Assembly: GCA_014323825.1 (NCBI GenBank)
Contig: JACONI010000073.1
Location: forward strand, 25,683-64,892
Reading direction: 5' to 3'
From: Ekhidna sp.
Lineage (GTDB): Bacteria > Bacteroidota > Bacteroidia > Cytophagales > Cyclobacteriaceae
DNA: 39,210 nt
Part shown: positions 1 to 39,210 of the stretch, in pieces
Position numbering within the stretch: position 1 is the first letter of the stretch
How the letters are laid out: the number at the start of each line of letters is the position of its first letter
Position numbers and translations under genes: made by a program
Notes under the pieces: generated by a model
Database searches by the model: none
The model's input: the letters and a program-made list of their open reading frames with translations, nothing else
What the model was told of the DNA's origin: nothing

Positions 1-189
1 GGGGGGTATATTTATTGTACGTGAAAATTGATTTTAAATGCATTATTTTGGTTATAAATTTTGATTTCATTTTTCTTTTATGTTAAGTTCAAATATAAAT
101 GTCAAACACAAATATATAAAAAATCTACAAATAAAAATACACTTTTTTGAGATAAAACTAAACGGGGAGAAGAACTGCCTGAGTGTGAG

Positions 190-37787: not shown

Positions 37788-37824
37788 TTTGTATATAACA
37801 AATCAAAAAACTTATATACCTTTG
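37788..37824 (+). promoter_or_regulatory. Promoter of the BspA-like gene
   Basis: TTTG (37788-37791) and TACCTTTG (37817-37824) fit the Bacteroidota elements with a 25-nt spacer. The -7 box is identical to that of the lipoprotein at 21.4 kb. The leader would be about 30 nt. Nothing else is recognised in 37565-37787. Confidence 0.55.
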
Positions 37825-37860: not shown

Positions 37861-39210
37861 ATGAGCACGTTAAATAAAAAAAGATCAAAAGACATCATAA
37901 ACACAGAGAACACGTCACATACGCTGCCGAAAGGGCTGTACGGGCTTAGTTTAATGCCCCCCCCCCTATAGTCTAATCTTATCTCCAAAAAATACCTTTT
38001 TATTCATCTCCATACTGCTCCTCGCTTTCTTAGGACGGGCGCAGGACAACCCGAAACCCTTCATCACCACATGGCAGACGAAAACTCCTGACGAAACCAT
38101 TACCATTCCTACTGTCAGCGGAGAAACCTACAGCTACACCGTAAAATGGGGGGAAGACGAACCTGCCGATAACAAAACCTACACTGGAGATGCTTCCCAT
38201 TCCTACACTAAAGCAGGAACATACACCATTACCATCAGCGGTACCTTCCCGCGTATCCGATTCGGGAAAACTAACATATTCGGGAATGTTACACGCTCCA
38301 CTGCAGCGGAGCAGATACGTACCATCGAACAGTGGGGAGACATTGCGTGGGCTTCCATGAAAAGTGCTTTTGCGGGTTGCCATAACCTGGCCTTCAATGC
38401 TACCGATGTACCGGACCTTTCAAACGTGACAGATATGAAAGACATGTTTGTTAATGCTGATTTTACCGGAGACCTTAGCGAATGGGACGTGAGCAGCGTG
38501 ACAAATATGAATATTATGTTTTATCAGTCTTCCTTCAACGGAGATCTTAGCAAATGGGACGTAAGCAGCGTGACGAATGCAGGGGGCATGTTTAATCAGT
38601 CCTCCTTCAACCAAGACATCAGCAAGTGGGACATCAGCAGCGTGACGAATATGAATAGCATGTTTTTGGATAACTCCTCCATGTCTTCCGAAAACTACGA
38701 TAAGCTCCTCATCGGGTGGAGTACCTTAGATGAATCGGCGGACGAGAGCCAAATCCCCCCTAATATCATTTTCAACGCACCGGATAAGTACTCCTGTAGA
38801 GGAAAAGCGGGAAGGGATGCACTCACCAGCACGCATTCCTGGACTATCTCAGATGATGAGTTAATCTCCATACGGACGGACGCAGCCGCCCTCTCGGCAG
38901 TGACGGCACCGTGTGAAGTCACTAAAGCTGAACTGAACGCCCCCACGGCTAAGAGCAGCTGCACGATGGGAGGAGGAACAACGGTCACGGCTGCGCATGA
39001 TGTCAGCAACTTCCCCATTACCGAAAGCACCCTCGTTACGTGGACTTATACCCATAACGGCAAAAGCATTGTACAAACACAAGCAGTGACCATAGACGAC
39101 ACCATGCCCCCGACAGTTTCAGGGAGCTTAGCTCCGGTTACCGAACAATGTCCGATCAATGCTGAAAATGAACTGACCGAACCTGCTGCACCCGCAGACA
39201 ACTGTGGAGG
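37861..39210 (+). CDS. BspA-like surface protein, out of frame at a C10 tract, 3' incomplete
   Basis: From the ATG at 37861 the frame reads 32 codons to the poly-C tract and stops at a TAG right after it. In the +1 frame, translation from the tract is open without a stop to the window end (about 415 codons). It reads a signal peptide (NTFLFISILLLAFLGRAQ), a PKD-like domain (about 38050-38250, with YTKAGTYTITISG), then DUF285/BspA repeats of 24 residues (72-bp spacing at 38483, 38555, 38627; WDVSSVTNMNIMF type), and Ig/HYR-like repeats (DDTMPPTVSG, EQCP) that continue past the end. That frame has no ATG ahead of the signal peptide; its first ATG is at 38357, so it needs the upstream ATG. Nine Cs would join the two. 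Likely a T9SS-secreted adhesin; the tail is outside the window. Confidence 0.8.
37957..37966 (+). repeat. Poly-C tract, ten Cs
   Basis: The longest C or G homopolymer I see in this AT-rich window. It lies between codon 32 of the BspA-like start frame and the signal-peptide frame. With ten Cs the frames are out of register; with nine they join. Confidence 0.95.

Follow-up and report, generated by a model that had tools for sequence, protein, structure and literature searches.

A run of ten cytosines near the 5' end of a surface-protein gene of a sponge-associated Ekhidna is, as judged from its sequence and with a probability of about 0.88, a slipped-strand translational phase-variation switch, one of about 100 of nearly uniform design in the genome, which would serve a very large repertoire of surface genes through a repeated leader-tract arrangement. 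A poly-C switch of this kind had been proposed in the initial annotation, and the proposal is now supported by the many copies of the arrangement, by the occurrence of all three phases among them, by differences in tract length, and by a copy (L147) whose leader runs in frame into the signal peptide.

The stretch analysed here (the window, 39,210 nt) corresponds to G000:C73:25683-64892 in genome coordinates. The genome, GM202BCY1 (3,008,284 bases, 122 contigs), is a metagenome-assembled genome assigned to Ekhidna, obtained at Guam from the sponge Lamellodysidea herbacea (clade II), and represents a consensus of Illumina HiSeq reads, 2x100 or 2x150 (PMC7313196). PBP2 encoded in the window shares 83% identity with that of Ekhidna sp. 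IRC4_bin_29 and 75% with that of E. lutea.

The tract and its reading frames

Apart from the C10 tract (37957..37966, forward strand), which starts 96 nt 3' of the ATG at 37861, the whole window has no run of C or G that exceeds six nucleotides. The 32 codons up to the tract, MSTLNKKRSKDIINTENTSHTLPKGLYGLSLM (37861..37956, forward strand), constitute a leader, hereafter leader A, which is found in 42 copies in the genome with a median pairwise identity of 0.89 and whose last ATG (37954-37956) directly adjoins the Cs. Upstream lies a putative promoter with a Bacteroidota-type -7 element, TACCTTTG (TAnnTTTG, 37817..37824, forward strand), assigned from the consensus. With the ten Cs of the assembly the leader is translated as ...LSLMPPPL* and ends at the TAG at 37969-37971 (forward strand), a state that we call OFF and that eleven Cs would share. 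With nine or twelve Cs (ON) the frame reads ...LMPPPYSLILSPKNTFLFISILLLAFLGRAQDNPKPF... and is open to the window end for about 415 codons, starting with a signal peptide, YSLILSPKNTFLFISILLLAFLGRAQ (37967..38044, forward strand), recognised by pattern and not by a predictor. The frame reading thus confirms what had been noted of this gene: ten Cs 96 nt after the ATG with a TAG right behind, a signal peptide and more than 400 codons if the Cs are nine, and a long frame whose first ATG, at 38357, lies past the signal peptide. As neither ATG nor GTG or TTG occurs in the ON frame before 38357, the signal peptide has no start of its own.

In the window, accordingly, a gene with surface domains carries a long homopolymer near the 5' end of its coding sequence, and a change of one C toggles between a premature stop and the full-length frame, with no other start ahead of the signal peptide. 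The fit of the frames and the missing alternative start argue for a phase switch, as does the coherent functional class, surface proteins, of the genes that carry tracts.

A second gene of this type (L154) has its 5' end at the left edge of the window on the reverse strand (1..70), where its promoter side and its leader, MKSKFITKIMHLKSIFTYNKYTP, are followed by CCCCCC at the very edge. An N gap that lies immediately beyond the window interrupts the C tract of this gene, and on the far side of the gap a C run, a YSIILSPKNTF signal peptide and DUF285 are found.

The protein encoded beyond the tract

A Pfam scan of the 417-aa ON frame revealed DUF285 (PARCEL-type) repeats at 38354..38689 of the forward strand (PF03382, E=8.4e-30; 103.4 bits against a curated cut-off of 25), and PARCEL-repeat matches are also present in the frame 3' of the tract. 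The rest of the gene within the window (38690..39210, forward strand) runs up to a 20-N gap at the window end (about C73:64893). Past this gap, at about C73:64913-66045, there are HYR/HYR_4C repeats and a T9SS type A sorting domain (TIGR04183, 27.0 bits against a cut-off of 23), which is joined to the N-terminal half across the 20-N scaffold gap. This domain composition makes it most likely that the DUF285-HYR protein sits on the cell surface and reaches it through the type IX secretion system. The label "BspA-like" given to it before is a loose one, the domain being DUF285; the scan of the 417-aa ON frame gave no match to a BspA-type leucine-rich repeat.

Abundance of tracts in the genome and its relatives

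Runs of at least nine Cs, counted with the pattern DCCCCCCCCC, number 108 in the genome studied, against about 7 expected under a first-order Markov model with the composition of the window. For C or G runs of at least ten, the same type of model predicts 0.02 in the window and 1.5 in 3.0 Mb, and the genome holds 102. With this last figure it ranks highest in runs of at least ten Cs both among 79 relatives and among 395 genomes of the phylum, where the next has 42. Three other Bacteroidota (G316, G292 and G377), with 33-42 C runs of at least ten, also stand well above the rest of the 395 sampled. Within the genus, eight of the nine other genomes contain 0-2 runs of at least nine Cs, and IRC4_bin_29 (G009) contains 37.

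Five exact matches to ATG-C10-TATAG are present in the genome. The leader-A motif TTTAATG-C9-15-TATAG had no match in the contigs of other species that were searched, a set from which the genome itself may have been excluded, nor in the viral contigs searched, and there is therefore no sign of spread outside the lineage or by phage.

Phase states and length differences

To describe the frame states, we considered 55 clean tracts, defined by clean flanks, a leader ATG and a signal peptide recognised by pattern, not by a predictor (35 of Sec type, 20 of lipoprotein type), a few near-duplicates being included. Ten of these are ON, 27 have one C too many and 18 one C too few, and in most of the copies with an out-of-frame tract the downstream frame is open for hundreds of codons. 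Tract length differs in 8 of 13 closely matching pairs, which are paralogous copies on different contigs and not alleles of one locus; in one example, L078 has C11 and L093 and L096 have C13, with flanks identical over 324 nt. Variation in length between constant flanks is in this way seen among paralogous copies elsewhere in the genome.

In L147, the leader seen in the window is followed by an interrupted tract (CCCCCTACCCCTCTCCC) and the frame is open from the leader into the signal peptide; this is a locked-ON form, which supports translation of the leader. Homologues with a proper ATG and no tract, which the initial annotation had named as evidence against a switch, do exist, namely the DUF285 genes L151 and L152, which have a plain ATG before the signal peptide; they show only that the DUF285 family has unswitched as well as switched members, and the switch proposed here stands. 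As a separate observation, the body type found in L115, L088 and L153 (RRSMKKAFL / GRRSIKKAFL) has an ATG before the signal peptide in some copies and an Ile codon in others, as though the original start had disappeared once the tract module was in charge.

Repeated leaders

A total of 104 tract occurrences were collected from the stretches around the listed tracts. Leader A (MSTLNKK...GLYGLNLM) precedes 42 of them, leader B (MMFYFII) precedes 22, and smaller groups are preceded by others. The search of the genome for further copies of the N-terminal module with its C run, as suggested earlier, was therefore productive, with 42 copies of the same leader and tens with other leaders. The suggestion that the stretch of 43 residues before the signal peptide is a translated switch module is likewise favoured by this recurrence, and by the in-frame leader of L147. 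A codon test on the leader, with a normalised N/S of 0.74 vs 0.85-0.93 in the other frames, gave at most weak evidence of translation.

Among leader-A genes with the same body type, median identity is 0.89 in the leader, 0.69 in the promoter plus 5' UTR, 0.79 over the signal peptide and 0.67 further in; upstream of about -165 from the tract, the similarity of leader-A copies falls to the level of shuffled sequence. Most leader-A copies have TATAnnTTTG in common at the aligned upstream place, which we take to fit the Bacteroidota -7 promoter consensus. Moreover, one leader may stand before different bodies: leader A precedes two kinds of DUF285 body as well as the lipoprotein L114, and leader D occurs both with the DUF285 body of L005 and with the lipoprotein L040. 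Since leaders are more alike than either the bodies or the upstream DNA, and since the same leader precedes different bodies, we tentatively put forward that promoter, leader and C tract form an exchangeable cassette that recombination or gene conversion has spread, the C tract serving as the joint between leader and body, so that genes would be both switched and re-paired with new surface proteins; we consider this possible rather than probable. The same pattern could arise if the assembler had wrongly joined contigs at C runs.

Proposed mechanism and alternatives

In the switch that we propose, translation would start at the leader ATG (37861, or a later in-frame ATG) and enter the C tract, to which slipped-strand mispairing at replication would add, or from which it would remove, Cs, presumably in a frequent and reversible manner. 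One phase out of three (here 9 or 12 Cs) would fuse the leader through a run of Pro residues to the signal peptide, so that the DUF285-HYR adhesin would be made, exported by the Sec pathway and brought to the surface by the type IX system; in either of the remaining phases, translation would end within a few codons. The product might act as an adhesin facing the host, phages or grazers. Each surface gene is probably switched on and off at random and separately, and, with the leader-tract design standing before tens of surface genes, each cell would display a random subset of them.

Three other explanations have to be weighed. The true tract might have nine Cs, the tenth being an assembly or sequencing error, and the gene would then be simply ON and invariant. 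The genome being a short-read consensus, individual lengths of runs longer than ten are uncertain; in addition, several contigs end inside a C tract, and 17 of the 29 N gaps in the fetched stretches lie at most 60 nt from a tract. Such gaps and contig ends are, however, also expected if the tracts are variable or repeated, and it is certain that the tracts exist, recur and lie where described. Miscounting would not yield 108 long C runs here vs 0-2 in eight of nine sister genomes, the same tract, position and leader recur at tens of independent loci, and paralogues are found in all three phases; we thus regard an error as very improbable. Transcriptional or ribosomal slippage on the C run, which would give constant low expression whatever the length in DNA and make the tract a damper instead of a heritable switch, draws on the 45 out of 55 tracts that are out of frame and yet precede long open frames, since the persistence of those frames indicates that the out-of-frame genes are expressed at least at times. 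Phase variation accounts for the same facts, tract lengths do differ between near-identical copies, and polymerase slippage is best known on A/T runs and not on C runs, all of which leaves this explanation unlikely.

The out-of-frame copies could also be decaying genes, pseudogenes of a shrinking symbiont genome in which neutral C tracts have been spread by duplication. The genome studied is indeed smaller than that of Ekhidna lutea (3.0 vs 4.2 Mb), but hundreds of codons remain open downstream in most out-of-frame copies, the lesion is always at one place, in the C tract that immediately precedes the signal peptide, and the affected genes almost all encode surface or secreted proteins, which makes decay the least probable of the three. 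A mismatch-repair loss as the general cause of the tracts was rejected for the genome studied, in which both mutS and mutL are intact; with MutS and MutL present, there is no general repair defect to speed slippage.

Relation to known systems

The closest precedent for the phase switch proposed here is opa of Neisseria gonorrhoeae. The opa repeat, (CTCTT)n, is part of the sequence that encodes the signal peptide, and frameshifts switch each gene separately. Gonococci carry about 11 opa genes for surface proteins at scattered chromosomal sites, with stochastic expression through phase variation (PMC3745409). Scattered surface genes and phase variation are common to both systems, whereas the opa repeat is a pentamer and the Ekhidna tract is made of C, and the latter is located before the hydrophobic core of the signal peptide and not inside it. 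Furthermore, opa is one gene family, while in the genome studied several unrelated families share the design and the number of genes is several times larger.

In the phasomes of Campylobacter, Helicobacter and Neisseria, tracts are mostly individual to each gene. These phasomes resemble the Ekhidna set in their homopolymer tracts, ON/OFF switching and largely surface-related genes, with 29 tract-associated coding regions in Helicobacter canadensis (PMC2823697) and 115 genes in N. meningitidis, where variation was confirmed by deep sequencing (PMC5084427). Unlike them, the genome studied has one leader before 42 tracts, and it belongs to a sponge-associated member of the Bacteroidota. Within this phylum, surface proteins of Bacteroides, including SusC/SusD, are phase variable by inversion-based switching (PMC11868660). 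The phylum and the class of target are shared with the SusC/SusD and capsule switching of Bacteroides, but there invertases invert DNA, whereas in the genome studied it is tract length that would change, including poly-G in SusC-like genes. In the open-access literature, which leaves most subscription journals uncovered, we found no earlier report of homopolymer phase variation in Ekhidna or in sponge-associated Bacteroidota. The set described here differs from the known systems in that its leader-tract module is repeated, in how many surface genes that module precedes, and in the organism that carries it.

If the tracts do switch, this sponge symbiont would be able to switch a very large set of surface genes independently of one another, by means of a repeated module and of tract length, in a phylum known for switching by DNA inversion, which would suggest that bet-hedging of surface antigens is not confined to vertebrate pathogens. 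As the sponge has innate immunity only, the selective pressure would be likely to come from phages, from grazers or from recognition by the host. The paper describing the genome mentions PacBio reads from the same sponge (cyanobacterial enrichment), so the claim of switching may be testable on existing Illumina and PacBio data (PMC7313196).

Other genes with tracts and the sister genome

The bodies found behind the tracts comprise DUF285/HYR/T9SS proteins, lipoproteins with cadherin or BACON domains, as found in those scanned, and SusC receptors, where the tract is poly-G in the coding sense. These poly-G tracts (11-15) are situated in the N-terminal part of SusC/RagA-type receptors, immediately ahead of the plug domain, where they precede (I/T)LVFSYVGFETQE; they are in frame in L045, L050 and L095 and out of frame in L041, L142 and, in G009, L117. 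A C11 is also present within the coding frame of a methyltransferase-like gene (L108, G000:C104:1-2200, reverse strand), which is out of frame as assembled.

The sister genome G009 (95% complete, about 460 contigs) gave no match to MutS, MutL being present; MutS was found in each of the other genus members searched. At four of its loci (L118, L129, L132 and L133), the tract precedes the start codon of a gene for a lipoprotein or a secreted protein, next to a possible promoter, and may act there on transcription instead of on the reading frame.
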